Source: an uncultured Pseudomonadota bacterium (GTDB lineage: Bacteria > Myxococcota_A > UBA796 > GCA-2862545). Taken from it: DNA of 64,000 nt. Positions 9,646-19,776 of the stretch are shown here, in pieces (position 1 is the first letter of the stretch; each line of letters starts with the position of its first letter). The position numbers were made by a program, and so were the translations under genes. The DNA lies in assembly GCA_913061235.1 (NCBI GenBank), contig CAJXTB010000011.1:124001-188000 (forward strand), given 5' to 3'. Below the pieces are notes generated by a model that worked only from the letters and a program-made list of their open reading frames with translations, was not told the origin of the DNA and did no database searches.

Positions 9646-12600
9646 TCAGTTGCATTCGAGGAGGAAGTTGATGTCGTAGGCGTCGTCTTGACCGGGGTCG
9701 GCGCTGACCGCGACGAAGTATTGGGCGTCGTTGTCGTCGATAAAGTCGTTAGAACCGGCGCCAATGTTGACGTAGCCACCAACGCTGTTTCCGAACTCGT
9801 TCACGATTCGGCCGCGAACGGCGCCATTCCCTCGGGGCTGCACTTCCACAATGCCTGCACAGCCGTCAGGAACCGGCGGTAGGCGGAACCAGTCGTCCGT
9901 TCCACAGGCTGACAGGTCGGCGGCGATGTTCCAGGTGACGGCGACACTTCGCGATGCGGTGTCATTGGGCGCAAAGATGTCGTCGGTCGGGCAAGCGGGA
10001 GCTTCGCACTGCTGGCTCACGGTCTGCTGATAGGACGAGCCCCGTCCGCCGCTGACGGTCCATGTGGCGCTAGAGCCCATCATGCGCAGTGGATTGACAG
10101 ACTCTACCTGGTGAATGACCGTGCCGTCGTCCTTCACGAAAGCGAGGTCGAGTGCTTCTGGAGCACGGACGTCCACAACTGTCGGGCACACCTGTGAGAA
10201 CTGCGTGTGCCAGTAGTCCACGTCATCGTCGCAGGCTGAGCCGGCTTGGCTGGCACCGAGTGCGGGCTTGCGATTGCTGTAGGTCCCGTTGGGTTCGTTG
10301 AGGTCGTTTGCACACGGGTAGGCGTCACAGTCGAACAGGCCGGCTGTGATGTCGTAGCGGTTGTGGTCGAGGTTGGACTCGATCGCTACGTCTGCGATGC
10401 CGTCGGGGGTGGTGGAGCGGGGTGAGTACACCAAGACCTGGCCGCCGTCTCCAAAGACGAGGGAGCCGCGTGAGCTCCCGTCAACCGACATGTTGAAGCC
10501 GATATTCTCGCTGCCGTAGGGATGACTGACCTGCACGCCGAGCTTGCAGCCGCCTACGAAGTCGAAGTTGTACCAGTCGAGGTCGCCGTCGCACAGGCTG
10601 GCCGTTTCGTAGACGGGATTGGGACCCGCGCCTAGGTAGATGCCGTTCTCGACGGTGTCGTTTCCGTCGCCGTCTTCGAATTCGTCTGGCAGGCACTCGC
10701 CGGTGTCTGCAGGCCCGCAGTTAGCGGTGACGGTGAGGCCGTAGTCGACTTGGTCCAACAAGGTGTCTGCCGTGACCGTGATGCTGAACACACCAAAGGA
10801 CTCTTGCGCGCTGGTCACTCCCAGACTGTTCGAGCCGCTGGTGCGACCAATGAGGACGTCCTGTGGATTGCGCAGTTCAAGGATGAGGTCGTCTTCACCG
10901 GAGGCGGTGTTGACGGAGACAACGCAGGTCTCGTCGGGCTGGCCGACGTCGATTTGGAACTGGTCAACGTCCGTTTGGTCGCAGATCCGCCCGCCACCAT
11001 CAAAAGGAACCGCTAGCTGGGCATAGTCTTGGTCATTCGGCTCATAGTCGTCATCTTCACAGACTGGTGTGATTGGACAGTCTTCGCCTACATTGAGGGT
11101 GTAGGGGGCGGTGCTTCCCTGGTAGCCGTACACTTCGATCCAGTGGGTACTCTGTGTAGCCACAACAGTGATTTGTTCGTTGGAGCTGCTGGACCCGGAG
11201 CTGCCGACTGTCGTCGAGGTGGATGCGCCCCACAATTTGAGGTCCAGGTCATCGCCGGAGACGCCCGACTGGTCGGTGAACAATAGGTCGATGGTCAGCT
11301 CACAGCCGGGGGCGGTGGTGAACGTGAACCAGTCTTCGTCGCCGTCGGCGCAGATCTGGCCTTGGATGCCGTCGACCGGAAGAACACTCAGAACGGTCGC
11401 GTTGGCCCGGTCATCGTTGCCGCTGGTGCCTTCGTATGAGTCAGGACAGCCTGGCTCGACCGGGTCCTCACAGACAACGTCGTAGGCAAATGTGTAGTCG
11501 ACATCAAAGTTGCCGGCGCGGTCGCGAATTTCTACGAAGACGCTGTCATTGTCGAGGTCTTCGCTCAACGAAGCGAAGCCATCCGAGCCCACAGTGTAGG
11601 TAGCGGGTGTGTCGGTGGTGCTCTGGTAGACGTAGATGCCGAGGTCCATGCCGGACTGCCACGTGTTGTTCAGCGACATGGCCAGACGGCACTGCTGACC
11701 GGGGGTGCGGTCCACATCAATCTCGTAGAAGTCGGCGCTGTCGTCCGCACAGATTGTGGCACTCGTGTTCGTGTTCTCGAGCACGGTGGTGTTTGCGGTG
11801 TTGATGGTGTCGTTGTCTTCGAAGCCGTCATCTTCGCAGACGGGTGTGACGCCGGTACAGTCTTCGGCGACGATGAACGTGTACGGGGATTCCGTGGTCT
11901 GGTAGCCATACACCCGAACGAACATGGAGCCGTCACCGGTGACGGCGAGGTCGTTGGCGAACTCGTCGTTGTTAGACGTCGTTCCGCTGAACACTTGAGC
12001 ACCGCTGGAGTTGAGGATTCGCATCTCGAGGTCGTTGATGGGAGTCTGCACGTAGGTGTGCTGCACGGTCACGTCTACGGTGCAGCCTGGCGTGCTGTTG
12101 ATCTGGAACCAGTCGTCATCATCTTCGCAGATCTGTCGGTTGAGGGAGACCGGGAAGTTGGAGAGGACGGTGGCATCGGCCTGTACATCATCGTCGGAGG
12201 AGCTGCGGTCGACCACGTCATCCACACAAGTGGGCGGATTGGTGTCGGGGTCTGTGTCCGGATCGGTATCGGGGTCTGTGTCCGGATCGGTGTCCGGGTC
12301 AATCTCGCAGTCGAGGCTCGCGACCAACAGGTAGTCGTTGCTCGAGCCTTGGTAGCCACTGACCAACACAGCGAACAAGCCACCGTCGCCAACGAAGGTC
12401 AGGCTCTCATCGCTGGTCTGTGTTTCGCTGGCAGCGACCTCGGTATTGCCGTCAAACAGGTACAGATCGAGGTCGCCATCGCTGTGGTCGAAGCCCAAGG
12501 TAAGGGTGGCTTCACAGTCGTCTGGGATGGTGAGGCGCATGACGTCGATGTCGCCGGGGCAGATGGTGCCTGAGATGCGGCTGCCGTCCGTGATGGGCGT

Positions 12601-12816
12601 GCCGCTTGCAAGGTCGTCGTCCTGCTCATTGCTGTCGTCCACACACTCAACATCGGTACCTGGGTCTGTACCGTCTGTTCCGTCGTCGTCTGTGTCGACA
12701 TCTTCCGTGTCGACGTCTTCGCTGTCTGAGTCGCCGTCGATGTAGTCTTCGAAAGGTTGCGGCAGGTAAGGCCAACAACCGGCGAGTAGGACGAAGAGGA
12801 AGGGGGCGGCGCGCAT
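9646..12816 (-). CDS. Lipoprotein with eight PPC-like domains
   Basis: A 1056-residue lipoprotein: signal peptide with lipobox LAGC, acidic linker, then eight repeats of about 110-130 residues. Each opens with a Cys-Asp-rich block (such as CEDDGFEDNDT), then ICxxDxDWF, a beta-sandwich with DLDLxL and a GYQ(T/G)xxxPYT strand. This is the pattern of bacterial prepeptidase-C-terminal (PPC) domains, non-catalytic modules that bind surfaces or aid secretion. No peptidase domain is present. Repeats 1 and 2 are separated by a (Asp-Pro-Asp-Thr)n linker. GGAG precedes the start. It is a paralogue of the gene at 12979-13920: signal peptides and linker starts match almost residue by residue. Confidence 0.8.
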   Translation of the reverse strand: MRAAPFLFVLLAGCWPYLPQPFEDYIDGDSDSEDVDTEDVDTDDDGTDGTDPGTDVECVDDSNEQDDDLASGTPITDGSRISGTICPGDIDVMRLTIPDDCEATLTLGFDHSDGDLDLYLFDGNTEVAASETQTSDESLTFVGDGGLFAVLVSGYQGSSNDYLLVASLDCEIDPDTDPDTDPDTDPDTDPDTNPPTCVDDVVDRSSSDDDVQADATVLSNFPVSLNRQICEDDDDWFQINSTPGCTVDVTVQHTYVQTPINDLEMRILNSSGAQVFSGTTSNNDEFANDLAVTGDGSMFVRVYGYQTTESPYTFIVAEDCTGVTPVCEDDGFEDNDTINTANTTVLENTNTSATICADDSADFYEIDVDRTPGQQCRLAMSLNNTWQSGMDLGIYVYQSTTDTPATYTVGSDGFASLSEDLDNDSVFVEIRDRAGNFDVDYTFAYDVVCEDPVEPGCPDSYEGTSGNDDRANATVLSVLPVDGIQGQICADGDEDWFTFTTAPGCELTIDLLFTDQSGVSGDDLDLKLWGASTSTTVGSSGSSSSNEQITVVATQSTHWIEVYGYQGSTAPYTLNVGEDCPITPVCEDDDYEPNDQDYAQLAVPFDGGGRICDQTDVDQFQIDVGQPDETCVVSVNTASGEDDLILELRNPQDVLIGRTSGSNSLGVTSAQESFGVFSITVTADTLLDQVDYGLTVTANCGPADTGECLPDEFEDGDGNDTVENGIYLGAGPNPVYETASLCDGDLDWYNFDFVGGCKLGVQVSHPYGSENIGFNMSVDGSSRGSLVFGDGGQVLVYSPRSTTPDGIADVAIESNLDHNRYDITAGLFDCDAYPCANDLNEPNGTYSNRKPALGASQAGSACDDDVDYWHTQFSQVCPTVVDVRAPEALDLAFVKDDGTVIHQVESVNPLRMMGSSATWTVSGGRGSSYQQTVSQQCEAPACPTDDIFAPNDTASRSVAVTWNIAADLSACGTDDWFRLPPVPDGCAGIVEVQPRGNGAVRGRIVNEFGNSVGGYVNIGAGSNDFIDDNDAQYFVAVSADPGQDDAYDINFLLECN
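12241..12300 (-). repeat. Short tandem repeat encoding (Asp-Pro-Asp-Thr)n
   Basis: Near-perfect 12-24 bp repeats (plus-strand core ggtgtccggatc/ggtatcggggtc) encode a DPDT linker between two PPC-like domains. The repeat number is likely to vary by slippage in multiples of three bases, changing linker length without breaking the frame. Similar Asp-Thr-Asp-Pro linkers occur in the lipoproteins at 12979-13920, 29671-30723 and 53659-54174. Confidence 0.75.
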
Positions 12817-12978: not shown

Positions 12979-13920
12979 CTATTCAGGGCAAGTCTCTTCG
13001 ACGACGAGAGTGTAGGGAGACTCGGTGGTCTGGTAGCCGTAGACACGGATCCAGCTGCGTTGCGCCACGTGGAAATCGCTGATGACCTCGTCATCCGTCG
13101 AGGACTCTGCAAGGGCCAGGACGTTGTTGCCTATGCCTACAATCTGAACATCAACATCGTTGAGGGGGGCGGCGACGTACTCGTGCTCGACCAGGACGTT
13201 GATTCTGCAGTTGAGGGCTGTGTCCAGCTCGTACCAGTCGTCGTCGCCTTCACAGATCTGGCCGTCAATGACCATTGGGAAGCTGCTGATCACGGTAGCG
13301 GAGGTTCGTGTGTCGTCGTTTCCGTTGGTGTCGATGCTGTCATCCACGCACTCACCAATGTCGACGTCGCAGTCCACATCTAGGTTGAGCGTGTAGTCAG
13401 CACTGTCATCTTGGTTGCCTTCCACAATCACGACGTACTCCCCACCATTGGCAAGAAACGTGATCTCCTCAAAGCTGGTGTTGTCCCGGTCACTCCAACC
13501 GACTTGGTCTTCGCCGCTAAACAGGAACAGGTCGAGGTTGCCTTGCTCTTCGTCGAAGGCCAGCTCAAGTGTGGCCTCGCACTCAGCGGGAATGGTGAGG
13601 CGCATGAAGTCGGGGTCGTTGGGACAGAGGGTACCGGAGCGAGAGCTGTTGTTTTGCAGCGCTGTGGCTTGGCCGAAGGTGTCGTCATCCTCACGGCTGT
13701 CGTCAATGCACGTGCCGTTCGGTTCGGTGTCCTCGTCAAGGTCGGTGTCTCTGTCAGGCTCGGTGTCTCCGTCGGGATCCGTGTCGCGGTCGCGGTCGTC
13801 GTCAGGTGTTGTGTCCTCGTCGGTGACGTCGGAGCCTTCGTTGGTGTACTCGTCGAAGGACTGCGGCAAGAAGGGCCAGCAGCCAGCAAGGAAGACCAGC
13901 AAGAAGGGTGCGGTTCGCAT
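12979..13920 (-). CDS. Lipoprotein with two PPC-like domains
   Basis: A 313-residue lipoprotein, a shorter paralogue of the 1056-residue protein just downstream on the same strand. The N terminus MRTAPFLLVFLAGCWPFLPQ parallels that of its neighbour; an acidic Asp-Thr linker follows, then two PPC-like beta-sandwich units opening CIDDSREDDDTFGQA and CVDDSIDTNGNDDTRTS, each with GYQT- or GNQD-type strands. It probably arose by tandem duplication, with later gain of units in the long copy or loss in this one. GGAG precedes the start. 162 bp separate the two genes, so they may be transcribed independently. Confidence 0.8.
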   Translation of the reverse strand: MRTAPFLLVFLAGCWPFLPQSFDEYTNEGSDVTDEDTTPDDDRDRDTDPDGDTEPDRDTDLDEDTEPNGTCIDDSREDDDTFGQATALQNNSSRSGTLCPNDPDFMRLTIPAECEATLELAFDEEQGNLDLFLFSGEDQVGWSDRDNTSFEEITFLANGGEYVVIVEGNQDDSADYTLNLDVDCDVDIGECVDDSIDTNGNDDTRTSATVISSFPMVIDGQICEGDDDWYELDTALNCRINVLVEHEYVAAPLNDVDVQIVGIGNNVLALAESSTDDEVISDFHVAQRSWIRVYGYQTTESPYTLVVEETCPE

Positions 13921-14033: not shown

Positions 14034-16358
14034 TCAATCGACGGTTGCGTCTACCCAGTCCACATGGTCGCCACGCAGCCCGTCTTCGCCCTGTAGGACC
14101 TTGATCTCAAGCACGGTCGCGTCTGTAATGTCGATCTCAAAGGGAACGGCTTCGGTGCTTCGGTCAAGAGGGCCTGACTCGAAGATGCGGGCGCCGTCCA
14201 CCCAGATCTCTGCAACGGCTGTTCCGCGTCGGGCTGCGCTATTGCGACCGACCTTACCCCTGAATGTGGTGTATTCGCCGTCCAGCGCGTACTCAATGCG
14301 ACTGTCAGCATGCATGCCAAGGCCGGTCTCAAAAGGCTCGCCATCAATGACGAGGGGCCGGTAGCTGACGCTGGTGCCCCAGCGAGACTTCTTCTCGCCG
14401 TGGTCCACATCGACTGGAACAAGGTCTTGCAGCAGCGTGCGGCCGGTATCCGCCAAGGTGCCGGCAACGAACCCTTCATAGTCGGCAAACAAGGCCAGCT
14501 GGCGCACATACCAGTGGTCTAGATGCGCTACGTAGGCTTCGACAAGCTCTTCGTGCTCGCCTGAGATGTCGCTGTGTTCGGTGGGGTCTTCGTCGATGTT
14601 GTACAGCTGGGTGATGCCGGTCTGTACCTGGTGAATCACCTTGTACGGCCCGTCTCGGAGGCCCAAGTACAAGAACGAGTAATCGGTGAAGAAGCGCGCC
14701 ATGTGCCGCTCGCCGTCGAGCAGCGAGTGCCCCTGCCAGCGCTCGGGTGTGGGCAGCGCGAGCAGGTCCATGAGCGACGGTGCCATGGCGGTGTGGTCGG
14801 CAAAGGCAGACACGCGTTGCTGCTGTGGGAACAGGCGTGGGTTGGACCACAGTGCCGGAATGTGCACGTTCTCTTCATAGATGGACGTGCTGTGGATGCG
14901 GTTCCCGTGGTGCTGTCCGAACGCTTCGCCGTGGTCACCAATGATGACGAAGAGGGTGTTGTCGAGCAGGCCTCGCTCTTCCACGGCGTCGTACAGGTCG
15001 CCTAGATTGCGGTCGGCGTAAGCCAAGGCGGACAGGTACTTTTCTTGGCTGGTCCCATCTCCGTACGTCGGGGTCTCGCCATCCGGCAAGCTGTACGGGT
15101 AGTGCGGGAAAATGGGCATGTACATCAGGAAGAACTTCTCCTGCCCAACGTCGTCCAGGAACCGTGTCATCTGGGCGACGGACGCCTCTTCTTCAATGCC
15201 CCAGCTGTCGGTGTACATGCTGTCGTCTTGTGGAAGCGACTTCATGTCCCACAAGCTCTCGAATCCGCGGCCCTCTAGGAAGTCAATCTTGCGGGTGTAG
15301 GTGAATTTTCCCGAGTGTACGAGCGACGAACGGTAGCCGTTGAGCTTCAGGACTTCTGGGAAGGAGTGGCACGGAAGCTGTGGCCGAATGTAGGTCTCAG
15401 CGGTGGGACGCGGGTACGGATAGGTCGAGCAAAAGTTAGCAAAGAGCGACTTCATGCTGGCCGGTGTGACCGTGTAGTAGTCATCGAAGACCACAGCGTT
15501 CTGTGCGATTCGGCTGATGTTTGGCGTGGGGTCGTCCGTGGCACCGTACAGACCGAGGTACTCGGCAGAGGTGGACTCCATGACCACCCAGATGATGTTC
15601 ATGTCTTCGGCGGCACCGCGCAGCCCTTCCAGGTCGGGACCGCGCGCGTCAGGGTCGAGCATGGAGCCACGAGGGATGGGCTGGCTGACGCGGGCGTCAT
15701 CTCCAAGGGTCTGAACGGTGGTCTGTGGCTCGGGAATGCCGAGTAGGGCGAGCTCCCACACCGCATTACGGTTGAGGCCGCGGGGGTCGATATGGTCCAG
15801 ACCCAGACTGCCGAGAATGAGGGTGTAGCCCAAGACAAGCGCAAGAATGCCGGAGCCCACGCGGGGGCTTTTGGTGATGGCCCAGGGCACCAATAAGGTC
15901 AGTGCGATGGCCGCGACGAGCGGCCAGGTGTTGGCGAAGGTGACGAGCCCAGCGGCAGACTCTCCGAGGTCACCCACGCCTCCGGCCATGCCCATCATGC
16001 CGCGGTTGAGTGGGGTGGAGAACGACCGGAAGAACGGTACGTTGACGCCCAGATACACAGCGAAGAACACGGCAATACCGGTAAATGCGCGCTGAGCGGC
16101 CACATGGCGCTTGTTGGCGATTGTGACCAGCGTTGCAGCGAGCAGTCCAAAGATCACCGCAACAAGGCCGTCGCGAAGCAGCCAGCCGGTCAGGCGCGGG
16201 CCGGGAATCAGCGCCTCAACACCATGCCGCTCGGTCGCCAAGAGAATCTTGATGAACGCGCTAGCGGCGAAGACCGAGGCGGTGGTGTACGCGAAAGCCG
16301 CCCAGAACGGGGGTCGGACGGCTTTGGCTTCGGTCTTCGGTGTGGCGCTATCCGTCAT
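14034..16358 (-). CDS. LTA-synthase/sulfatase-fold membrane enzyme with C-terminal NPCBM domain
   Basis: A 774-residue protein: about five transmembrane helices (residues 20-190), an alkaline-phosphatase-superfamily domain (about 250-640) and a C-terminal NPCBM carbohydrate-binding module (about 660-774, core GLGMHADSRIEYAL). Catalytic-fold marks are VVMESTSAEYLGLYG (metal-binding Glu261), a Thr/Ser nucleophile region YYTVTPASMKS (295-304) and FVIIGDHGEAFG. The nucleophile is Thr or Ser rather than Cys, so it resembles LtaS or phosphoethanolamine/phosphoglycerol transferases more than formylglycine sulfatases. Fusion to NPCBM suggests a polysaccharide target in the envelope. Its ATG overlaps the TGA of the upstream gene (ATGA at 16358-16355), so translation is probably coupled. 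Confidence 0.85.
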   Translation of the reverse strand: MTDSATPKTEAKAVRPPFWAAFAYTTASVFAASAFIKILLATERHGVEALIPGPRLTGWLLRDGLVAVIFGLLAATLVTIANKRHVAAQRAFTGIAVFFAVYLGVNVPFFRSFSTPLNRGMMGMAGGVGDLGESAAGLVTFANTWPLVAAIALTLLVPWAITKSPRVGSGILALVLGYTLILGSLGLDHIDPRGLNRNAVWELALLGIPEPQTTVQTLGDDARVSQPIPRGSMLDPDARGPDLEGLRGAAEDMNIIWVVMESTSAEYLGLYGATDDPTPNISRIAQNAVVFDDYYTVTPASMKSLFANFCSTYPYPRPTAETYIRPQLPCHSFPEVLKLNGYRSSLVHSGKFTYTRKIDFLEGRGFESLWDMKSLPQDDSMYTDSWGIEEEASVAQMTRFLDDVGQEKFFLMYMPIFPHYPYSLPDGETPTYGDGTSQEKYLSALAYADRNLGDLYDAVEERGLLDNTLFVIIGDHGEAFGQHHGNRIHSTSIYEENVHIPALWSNPRLFPQQQRVSAFADHTAMAPSLMDLLALPTPERWQGHSLLDGERHMARFFTDYSFLYLGLRDGPYKVIHQVQTGITQLYNIDEDPTEHSDISGEHEELVEAYVAHLDHWYVRQLALFADYEGFVAGTLADTGRTLLQDLVPVDVDHGEKKSRWGTSVSYRPLVIDGEPFETGLGMHADSRIEYALDGEYTTFRGKVGRNSAARRGTAVAEIWVDGARIFESGPLDRSTEAVPFEIDITDATVLEIKVLQGEDGLRGDHVDWVDATVD

Positions 16359-19300
16359 GGTTCCAGGGTGACGAAGGGGACGGTGACGACCACGGGCGGA
16401 CTGTCGCCAGTGGGGAATGTCAGGCGCACTGCATCACCCGTTGCACCGGTGATGCGCAAGGAGTGCTTGCCGGCGGTCAGCGTCTGTGTGTGGCTGCCGA
16501 GTACGTTGCCTGCGCCTAGAGTCTCGATGAGCACGTCATCGTAGTTCATGCTGACGTCGTAGGTGACCTCTTGAGGTCCGTTCGACACGGGGGTTCCCGC
16601 GCGGAACTCGAAGGCAGGCCTTGGAAGTGTGCCTTGTGAGACAGGGACAAAGGGCGCGCCGTTTGGCGAGCGCACGGTGAAGACCGCATCTCGGCGGTCT
16701 TCCAGAGGAACGTCCACTTCGATGAGCTGCCCACCTGCTGGAACGTCGACCGTGCCGTGGTAGACGAGCCCGCCCATGTGCCAGACTTCCCACACCCACG
16801 TCTCATCTGTTGGGCGTGCATTGATGGTGTTGCTGACGTGCCAGACGTGTTCGACGGGGTCGGCGGTCGCTCGCATACGACCACGCGTTGCGGCGGTAGC
16901 GAAGTTCTGCGTCTGTGGTCCCGGAGCCATGCGCATGCGGCCTCCAACCACAGACGTTGCCTGATGTCTGTTGGGGCCGTTGAGCAACCAGTTCATGCCC
17001 AGGTCCGCCGTGACATCACCCAACGCTTGGTAGTGCACGAACAACTCGACAATGTCTCCTTTCCGAACACCCACGGGAATGCCGCTGGGCACACACGGAG
17101 CAAAGACGGTGGGCATGTAGCGTTCTTCGGACATCGACTCGCCAAACCACGAGCAGGTCTCTGTGAACACCTCGCCGTCTTCTTTGGGAAGGTTGATGTT
17201 GAGCCACTTTTGGCCCGCGCCACCGCCATCAATGAGGATGGTGCCTTCGACCTGCTCGCCAAGGTCTTGGACGGCAATGGCCAAGCCGTATGCGGTCGCG
17301 AGTACCGTCATCTCGGCGTGCTCCATTCCGTTGGCCAAGACTCCGACCATGAGCGTTGGGCCGTTCGCGGGCTGGTCCCACTGGTCCTCGTCGAGCACGC
17401 CATCCACCGTGGGACGAATCCCGGGTAGAACGGCGAGGTCTTCGGGCAGAACGTAGTCGGGAGGCGGCCAGTTCAGATTGTCGAACGCCAGCATCTCAAC
17501 CGCGATGTCTCCGGCGGAGAAGGTGTGCGTGGGCTTGAACTTCTTGCCGCGCTGTAGCCGCAGCGCTTCGGTTGCGGCGGCTTGACGGATGAGTGCCAGG
17601 GCGTCTTCGGTCATGCGGCCGTCGTCGATGGGACCGGTGTTGTCAATGCCGAGAATGGGCGCTGCGGCACCGTGCAAGATGGCCCGTGCGCGCGAGACGT
17701 CTGCTCCCTCGGCTTCGGCAGCGTCCGCAGCCAGCTCCAGAGTGTGCAGCACGCGGACATCCACAACGCCCTCTCCGTACGCGTTGACCAGAGTGCCCGG
17801 CCAGACAGTGTCTCCGCTGGGCGCCAAGAAGGCGCGCAGGAAGTCTTGGCGTGAGCCAACGTCAGAGAACGCGTCTCCGACGGCGTCGTTCCAGTGCCAC
17901 GACAGGTAGCCGTCGGGGCGCAGGGCCCATCCGCCGAACGGGGCGTGGCGACCGGGCATCATGTTGTACGCCCAGCCTTCCGCGCCTTGGGAGCGGAAGT
18001 TGTCGGACCGTCCGGCGCGGGGGTGGGGGCGCAGGGTGTGCATGGCGATGTCAAAGTCGCCAGCGTACGGCCAATCGACCGGGTTCTCCGTGGCTCCGAC
18101 AAGCCGGACGGTGGGCTGCGCACGACGGAAGGCAGCGGAGATGCGGCGTGCGAGACGTACGTATTGACGGCCTCGGCTACCGCCCTCATCGTAGAAGTAC
18201 AGAGCGACGTCGTTGTCTACGCCAGCCTGGGCCATCATGTCGATGTGCTCCAGATTGAGGGTCTGCCGCTCTTTGTACCCACCCATGTTTGTGACGGCAA
18301 AGAAGGGGTCTACCCAGATCATTTCCTTACCGCCGGCCTCGCGCCACAGGGCTGCAGCGGCGGGCATTGCGCCGGGCTGGTACTCGGTGGTGGTCGCTCC
18401 GACGTAGGGGTACCAGGTCGACGACAGGCGCAGGGCCATGGCGTCCATGCCTCGCTCGCGCATCAGCCGGACGTCTTCGGCAAAGATGTCCATCGCGGCT
18501 TGGCTTTCTTGTCCGTGAATCTGGCCAACAACGGGCCGAAGATCGACGAAGTACCCCATAGGGAAGGGGTTGTCAGCCACGGCGAGTCGGGAGACGTTGA
18601 CCACGAGTGGAATGTCCATCGTCTCGTCGCCACGCTCGACATGCAGGGTTCCTGTGTAGGTCTTCGGCTTGGCATCGTCGGGAACAATGATGGTCAGTCC
18701 GAGTCCGACCGGAGCGCCTTGTTCGCCGTTGAGCGTGTGTTCCGTGGGTCGCACAAAGGCGGGACGTGGACGACGCTTGATCTCGATGTCTCCGCGATGG
18801 TCCAGCCAGTGGACTTCGCCGGTCTCGACCTCAATGCCGTCTAGACCGTCAATGCGGAACTCAACGGGGTCGTCGCTGCCGAACAGCCACACGACCTGTC
18901 CCGTGCGGTTCCCGCGGTACGCGTCCACCTCGAAGACCGGGTCAGTGACGCCTTCTTCGACGGTCGGATGCTCACGCCAGTGGGTGAACTGCACCGACAT
19001 GGGGCCTTCGCCAATGGCCGGCGCATCCCACACGGCAGCTTGTGGCCAAGTCTGCTCAAGGTAGTGGATACGACGGGCGGCATCCGCGCTCTCAATGAGC
19101 ACTTCCGCCTCAATCGCTTCGGCCTTGGACGCGATGACGAGCGCTTGAAGACCGGTGCGGAAGACTTCGATGTCCACGCCGTCTTCGTCCATGGTGAACT
19201 CGAAGGGGATCCACTCCTGCTGCACGCGGTGTTGGCGGTCCCACTCGGTCAGTCCCTCACCAAATTGAGGGAAGGGGTTGGCCACGTTCCACTTGGAGGA

Positions 19301-19675
19301 GAGGTACTCTGGACCGCCGGGAACGTCGAAGCTAGCGACGTCTTGGCCGTCGATGCGAATGCCATGCGTCACGCCAATAGGGTAGACGGCGTCGTAGTAA
19401 AGAGAGCCGTTTGGGGCGCCAATGTAGGCGTACCCAATGTAGTCTCCTGGCGGTTGGCTGACGTGCAGTACGCCACCTTGAAGCCAGTCATTGACGAGAG
19501 GATCGGGGGCACCGTAGACCAGTCCGCGGCGTGCGGGAGTGGTCCACGTGACGCCGGGAGCTGTGGTGGTCTGTGGGTGCAGTCCAACGAAGCCTTCGAA
19601 CACTGGTGTACCGATTGGACCGGCATCCAGCGCGAGTGGGGCAGCGTGGGCGGTCAGGGCGAGCCACAACAACAT
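16355..19675 (-). CDS. Large secreted GH123/DUF4091-like glycoside hydrolase candidate
   Basis: An 1106-residue exported protein (signal peptide MLLWLALTAHAA). N-terminal beta-rich region, then an Ig-like segment (GLTIIVPDDAKPKTYTGTL), then a TIM-barrel-like region starting FPMGYFVDLRP with ALYFYDEGG, GWAYNMMPGRHAPFGGW and DGYLSWHWNDA. These blocks resemble DUF4091/GH123 proteins, in which an Asp-Glu pair after a beta-strand catalyses N-acetylhexosaminide cleavage; assignment by pattern only. The C-terminal 350 residues look like further beta-sandwich binding modules. GAGGAG precedes the start. The stop overlaps the start of the LTA-synthase-like gene, implying a joint role in processing a surface glycan. 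Confidence 0.65.
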   Translation of the reverse strand: MLLWLALTAHAAPLALDAGPIGTPVFEGFVGLHPQTTTAPGVTWTTPARRGLVYGAPDPLVNDWLQGGVLHVSQPPGDYIGYAYIGAPNGSLYYDAVYPIGVTHGIRIDGQDVASFDVPGGPEYLSSKWNVANPFPQFGEGLTEWDRQHRVQQEWIPFEFTMDEDGVDIEVFRTGLQALVIASKAEAIEAEVLIESADAARRIHYLEQTWPQAAVWDAPAIGEGPMSVQFTHWREHPTVEEGVTDPVFEVDAYRGNRTGQVVWLFGSDDPVEFRIDGLDGIEVETGEVHWLDHRGDIEIKRRPRPAFVRPTEHTLNGEQGAPVGLGLTIIVPDDAKPKTYTGTLHVERGDETMDIPLVVNVSRLAVADNPFPMGYFVDLRPVVGQIHGQESQAAMDIFAEDVRLMRERGMDAMALRLSSTWYPYVGATTTEYQPGAMPAAAALWREAGGKEMIWVDPFFAVTNMGGYKERQTLNLEHIDMMAQAGVDNDVALYFYDEGGSRGRQYVRLARRISAAFRRAQPTVRLVGATENPVDWPYAGDFDIAMHTLRPHPRAGRSDNFRSQGAEGWAYNMMPGRHAPFGGWALRPDGYLSWHWNDAVGDAFSDVGSRQDFLRAFLAPSGDTVWPGTLVNAYGEGVVDVRVLHTLELAADAAEAEGADVSRARAILHGAAAPILGIDNTGPIDDGRMTEDALALIRQAAATEALRLQRGKKFKPTHTFSAGDIAVEMLAFDNLNWPPPDYVLPEDLAVLPGIRPTVDGVLDEDQWDQPANGPTLMVGVLANGMEHAEMTVLATAYGLAIAVQDLGEQVEGTILIDGGGAGQKWLNINLPKEDGEVFTETCSWFGESMSEERYMPTVFAPCVPSGIPVGVRKGDIVELFVHYQALGDVTADLGMNWLLNGPNRHQATSVVGGRMRMAPGPQTQNFATAATRGRMRATADPVEHVWHVSNTINARPTDETWVWEVWHMGGLVYHGTVDVPAGGQLIEVDVPLEDRRDAVFTVRSPNGAPFVPVSQGTLPRPAFEFRAGTPVSNGPQEVTYDVSMNYDDVLIETLGAGNVLGSHTQTLTAGKHSLRITGATGDAVRLTFPTGDSPPVVVTVPFVTLEP

Positions 19676-19776
19676 GAACGTCTCCTCGGCTTGAGAGCCT
19701 ACGGCATTTGGGCGTTAGAGACGTTGGTCGGCCGAATCCATCAATGCTTTTTCGAACCGCGCTTAGGGACTGGCCT

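Follow-up and report, generated by a model that had tools for sequence, protein, structure and literature searches.

Two overlapping genes for a GH123-like protein and a membrane enzyme of the alkaline-phosphatase superfamily are unusual as a local pair and do not amount to an established glycan system

The 64,000-nt stretch analysed (contig CAJXTB010000011.1, positions 124,001 to 188,000, of an uncultured Pseudomonadota bacterium; hereafter the window, its genome being designated G000) contains two adjacent genes on the minus strand, A and B, whose predicted products are a GH123-like protein and a membrane enzyme of the alkaline-phosphatase superfamily, respectively (Table 1). The reading frames, their coordinates and the shared ATGA (CTGGAACCATGACGG) were as reported in a preliminary description made from the letters of the window. 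An AGGAG was seen by eye at nt 19682-19686, 8-12 bases upstream of the ATG of A; position-specific GC was of the coding type in both genes, with a modest difference, and a scan for promoters and terminators gave no signal above chance. Overlaps of four bases are ordinary at operon junctions; this one makes joint translation of A and B probable and says nothing on cooperation of the products.

Table 1. Features of genes A and B in the window
Feature	Position (nt)	Strand	Description	Basis
Gene A	16355..19675	-	1106 aa; GH123-superfamily-like protein, predicted to be exported; CBM9-like domain fused at the C terminus
Gene B	14034..16358	-	774 aa; enzyme of the alkaline-phosphatase superfamily, membrane-anchored; NPCBM at the C terminus
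A/B junction	16355..16358	-	ATGA stop/start overlap	read in sequence
A residues 1-245	18941..19675	-	signal-peptide-like N terminus (short, hydrophobic, AHA-A at its end), followed by a domain that the A family conserves; no Pfam model	family alignment
A residues 246-709	17549..18940	-	GH123-like beta-sandwich and catalytic region	hhalign with controls (see text)
A Asp496-Glu497	18185..18190	-	counterpart of the GH123 catalytic DE pair	hhalign alignment
A C-terminal region	16379..17419	-	CBM9-like; separate upstream gene in four relatives	hhalign to CBM9
B residues 17-190	15789..16310	-	membrane part; hydropathy peaks ~56-81, 92-113, 139-162 and 167-185	hydropathy; weaker first segment by eye
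B residues 254-533	14760..15599	-	catalytic domain; Glu261, Asp475, His476 (metal ligands), His419, His489	homology
B Ser301	15456..15458	-	predicted nucleophile, P-x-[ST]-x-K; aligns with sulfatase Cys	alignment
B residues 641-773	14040..14438	-	NPCBM (PF08305)	102.2 bits (gathering cut-off 23.9), E 3e-29

Searched alone, A gave no match in Pfam, NCBIfam and PDB sequence searches and did not match the model of GH123/DUF4091 (PF13320) even at E 10, and two of the eight A-family members matched PF13320 (best E 0.0056) below the Pfam gathering cut-off. When the A-family alignment was compared by hhalign with the profile of 29 PF13320 proteins from the same phylum, a match of 98.8% (E 1.2e-16) over 448 columns was obtained, and A as a single sequence gave 94.9%. 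Reversed, column-shuffled and unrelated-family controls gave 0.3% or less, and the result was robust to leaving out any single member of the A family. Identity between A and GH123 was only ~17%. These findings bear out the GH123 likeness proposed in the preliminary description; since the gathering cut-off was not reached, however, A counts on its sequence as a remote relative of GH123 that the curated model does not cover and was not filed as a member. By profile comparison, A falls in the same fold family as the GH123/DUF4091 beta-N-acetylgalactosaminidases (NgaP, CpNga123, BvGH123 and Groups 1-4 of PMC11087588), with which it has in common the consecutive DE pair and a beta-sandwich ahead of the catalytic region, whereas an extra N-terminal region, the fused CBM9-like tail and the location of its relatives in exopolysaccharide clusters set it apart.

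In the GH123 DE motif, Asp stabilises the acetamido group and Glu serves as the acid/base (PMC11087588). This pair was kept in A and in its counterparts from genomes G002, G005, G007 and G014. Further conserved GH123 residues, in NgaLy numbering, are D95, W115, Y392, G427, W431, Y466 and R478 (PMC11087588); Tyr570, Gly589 and Trp593 of A are plausible counterparts of NgaLy Tyr392, Gly427 and Trp431, assigned by spacing and motif with NgaLy itself lying outside the alignment. For the N terminus of A, the AGA-YXIM galactose-binding domain (PF21254), suggested by motif, was rejected, as no match to it was found in 141 genomes of the phylum including G000. Partial matches to this region were seen in long frames of two distant genomes (L188 in G114:C7 and L189 in G179:C235) and suggest that the N-terminal domain is also present on other proteins.

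The last third of A, on which the preliminary description was silent, resembled a separate protein of ~400 aa in G002, G005, G007 and G014. Comparison of this family with CBM9 (PF06452) by hhalign gave 96.7% (E 3.5e-10) over the N-terminal part of the region, including the DG-x-L-x-E-x-x-W start of CBM9, with null controls; no member passed the Pfam gathering cut-off, and the region is therefore termed CBM9-like only. In these four relatives, the CBM9-like gene encodes a separate secreted protein and lies directly upstream of the A-like gene (pairs at L035:7564-11114, L032:9455-12843, L031:608-4053 and L037:1599-3934), overlapping it by 4 bp in G002, G005 and G014 and by 1 bp in G007, whereas in the window the order is reversed, the CBM9-like part coming last, and both are fused into A. 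In the sister genomes G003 and G015, the A-like gene was not beside a CBM9-like gene and a copy was kept farther away: G003 has it on the contig of the A-like gene, G015 on the contig that carries a Wzy-TPR gene. As a candidate two-part glycan system, the conserved pair of CBM9-like and GH123-like genes has a stronger claim than A and B.

Six more genomes from the taxonomic family of G000 (G002, G003, G005, G007, G014 and G015) yielded relatives of A at 28% to 36% identity, and no other genome of the class did (7 of 71 in all, G000 included); within a sample of 379 genomes of the phylum, three further genomes gave partial matches only. The A-like and CBM9-like genes of G002 and G005 were situated among genes for Wzz/AAA, Wzy_C, TPR-Wzy, flippase and glycosyltransferase proteins, and a short contig of G007 carried, by eye, a flippase-like and a polymerase-like fragment beside them. 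The envelope polysaccharide setting put forward in the preliminary description thus gained support for the family of A, three relatives of which lie in such clusters. G000 carries an exopolysaccharide cluster of its own (G000:C6). Because no A-like gene was found in that cluster, and the only one found in G000 was the copy in the window, away from it, the CBM9-GH123 unit appears to have moved out of the cluster, become fused, and been placed before B.

The protein predicted for B possessed a Pfam Sulfatase domain (residues 254-533, E 5e-47); its best PDB sequence match was 3lxq, of the alkaline-phosphatase superfamily, and the LtaS-type structures 2w8d, 4uop and 4uoo were also matched. A structure model with a predicted local distance difference test (pLDDT) score of 63 led Foldseek to the same superfamily, the sulfatases-first ranking being biased by two sulfatases in the alignment used for the model. 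In sequence, B has the LtaS-type layout of a membrane N terminus followed by a predicted external domain with Glu/Asp/His ligands, features that, along with a nucleophile other than formylglycine (FGly), are shared with the transferases of the LtaS/MdoB/EptA type (LtaS, OpgB, EptA/MCR and 3lxq). The LtaS-like membrane enzyme with a C-terminal NPCBM of the preliminary description was thus recovered by the Pfam and PDB matches. B differs from these transferases in having Ser301 in place of the canonical Thr, in its NPCBM, and in scoring far below every curated equivalog cut-off: 64.6 bits versus 970 for LtaS and 18 bits versus 574 for MdoB (PRK03776), both partial matches, and 9.7 to 13.4 bits versus 404 to 900 for the EptA/CptA/MCR models of NCBIfam.

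Among 31 aligned proteins, Glu261, Asp475, His476 and His419 were conserved in nearly all, and position 301 was Ser or Thr in 30, with Lys303 along with it. Thr298, which fits an MCR-like register, was rejected as the nucleophile, being Val in a paralog and variable in relatives. Hence, within the Thr/Ser site at residues 295-304 singled out in the preliminary description, Thr298 was not conserved and Ser301 was. An FGly sulfatase was likewise rejected, since the C/S-x-P/A-x-R motif was absent and the stretch VTPASMKSLF had neither Cys nor Arg at the motif positions. B is a membrane enzyme that probably transfers a phosphate-containing group.

The NPCBM-bearing form, a joining unfamiliar for LtaS-like proteins to the preliminary description, was rare: in the 379 genomes of the phylum, only the two paralogs of G000 covered the NPCBM at the search threshold, these being B and a protein with 46% identity encoded on G000:C25. 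The paralog has no A-like neighbour; its locus (L030:6883-11428) lies near a PspA-like gene, recognized by eye, and a GH18 gene. In the class, the remaining NPCBMs that could be assigned were borne by secreted proteins, GH27-like ones (by eye) among them. A profile search of genome contigs with the B alignment returned mostly NPCBM-only relatives from Bacteroidota and Planctomycetota, and the viral contigs scanned gave no match. NPCBM domains in conflict systems are fused to intracellular effectors (PMC8195603), and no published LtaS-type NPCBM fusion was found in the literature searched.

The nearest relatives of B, of ~640 aa and without the NPCBM, came from other families of the phylum. Genes for a phosphatidylserine decarboxylase and a fatty-acid desaturase were present within ~7 kb in 10 of 13 loci of such relatives (L127-L130, L191-L195 and L197), and the same probes found neither in 488 kb of other loci used as a control. 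The remaining three comprised two short contigs and the locus of G179, which truly lacks both genes in ~7-8 kb on each side. At least five families of the phylum are represented among the 10 loci, which are related and so do not amount to ten independent events. The product of phosphatidylserine decarboxylase is phosphatidylethanolamine, which phosphoethanolamine transferases use as their donor. Because the relatives lie near the decarboxylase gene, phosphoethanolamine is favoured over phosphoglycerol as the group probably transferred by the family and, by extension, by B itself. Among the chemistries proposed in the preliminary description, phosphoethanolamine thereby gained support, and an FGly sulfatase was excluded by its motif.

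At the loci inspected in other genomes, A-like and B-like genes were never found next to each other. The occurrence of the pair in one genome only refers to the collections searched, among which there was no congeneric genome, and not to all sequence databases. Because the pair was found in no other genome of these collections, a conserved two-component system is not supported, and the new two-component glycan system of the preliminary description, which had been made to depend on conservation of the pair in relatives, could not be upheld. A and B are an unusual local combination, not an established new system, and the most economical explanation is a lineage-specific operon of an exopolysaccharide-related hydrolase-like protein and a headgroup transferase with a gained lectin domain.

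Taken as a whole, the reading that we tentatively prefer, at somewhat less than an even chance, is that A and B are expressed together and share a target, a polysaccharide containing N-acetylhexosamine that belongs to the envelope or exopolysaccharide of the cell itself. Exported A would cleave beta-N-acetylhexosaminide bonds (of N-acetylgalactosamine or N-acetylglucosamine) through the substrate-assisted catalysis of GH123: Asp496 would steer the acetamido group, Glu497 would serve as the acid/base, and the CBM9-like tail would bind the glycan. B would be anchored in the inner membrane and expose its catalytic domain on the outer side, where Ser301 would attack the headgroup of a phospholipid, most likely phosphatidylethanolamine, and hand this group on to an acceptor glycan bound by the NPCBM. 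Export of A, the substrates, the donor, co-expression and one substrate for both are what we infer from these comparisons. The NPCBM and the CBM9-like tail both suggest a glycan substrate, and it is these two tails, with the translational coupling, that point to a common one.

Several observations weigh against this scheme. The pairing was found in a single genome, and being translated together is no proof that the two proteins have a substrate in common. EE replaces DE in the A-like proteins of G003 and G015 (L034 and L033), a possible change or loss of activity, and NgaLy Arg478, probably also Tyr466, seems by eye to be replaced in A in the family alignment. The single-sequence model of A (pLDDT 39.6) was too poor to confirm a barrel, and no phosphatidylserine decarboxylase was found in the sequence around B or its paralog in G000.

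The best surviving alternative, somewhat unlikely in our judgement, is that the adjacency is accidental, giving a common transcript and no common substrate. Four-base overlaps are common in bacteria, no other genome of the collections searched showed the pair, and the conserved neighbours differ, being exopolysaccharide genes for the A family and the decarboxylase and desaturase genes for the B family. However, the two genes overlap on the same strand in an intergenic-poor pair, glycan-binding domains have been added to both products, and a CBM9-GH123 unit that apparently left an exopolysaccharide cluster now abuts B.

A role for B as an MdoB/OpgB-LtaS-type phosphoglycerol transferase, using phosphatidylglycerol as the donor and a periplasmic or envelope glycan held by the NPCBM as the acceptor, would fit its N-terminal membrane segments and external catalytic domain, the LtaS-type structures matched, and the partial LtaS and MdoB scores. 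We consider it unlikely, since these scores are far below the equivalog cut-offs, the predicted nucleophile is Ser in P-x-S-x-K and not the Thr of LtaS, and the neighbouring decarboxylase genes of the relatives lead to phosphatidylethanolamine.

Predatory bacteria are common in related lineages, and A might be an exported beta-N-acetylhexosaminidase that serves foraging by degrading prey or dead-matter glycans; B would then be either an unrelated neighbour or a phosphodiesterase clearing phosphate substituents. The GH123 enzymes known so far are mostly glycan-degrading hydrolases (PMC11087588), and the paralog of B is near a GH18-like gene. Nevertheless, the close relatives of A are in exopolysaccharide biosynthesis clusters and not beside sugar importers or catabolic genes, and B is membrane-anchored with a transferase-type architecture, which makes foraging distinctly unlikely. 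EE in two relatives and the apparent loss of the Arg478 counterpart would allow A to have a GH123-like fold but no catalytic activity, and to serve exopolysaccharide export in a structural or chaperone-like role; this is very doubtful, given that the DE pair was kept in five proteins at only ~30% overall identity.

Elsewhere in the window, nt 9646-12816 and 12979-13920 on the minus strand encode two secreted proteins that are rich in Asp and related to each other; both contain repeated domains, their lipoprotein-like N termini are similar, and neither had a Pfam match.

With regard to the biology of these families, the relatives of A suggest that one branch of the GH123 superfamily, recognised by none of the curated models used here, is tied to making rather than digesting exopolysaccharide. 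B is predicted to be an alkaline-phosphatase-superfamily membrane transferase with a glycan-binding domain of its own, which would explain how a polysaccharide acceptor is chosen. In a bolder proposal, to which we give little credence, A and its relatives would be a new branch trimming self-made exopolysaccharide and B a lectin-tethered phosphoethanolamine transferase acting on the same polymer, so that one operon would cut and cap an envelope glycan. The conserved decarboxylase and desaturase neighbourhood may define a phosphoethanolamine-transfer module; it hints at a specific donor lipid and makes the large class of proteins annotated as "sulfatase / LTA synthase-like" in this phylum testable.

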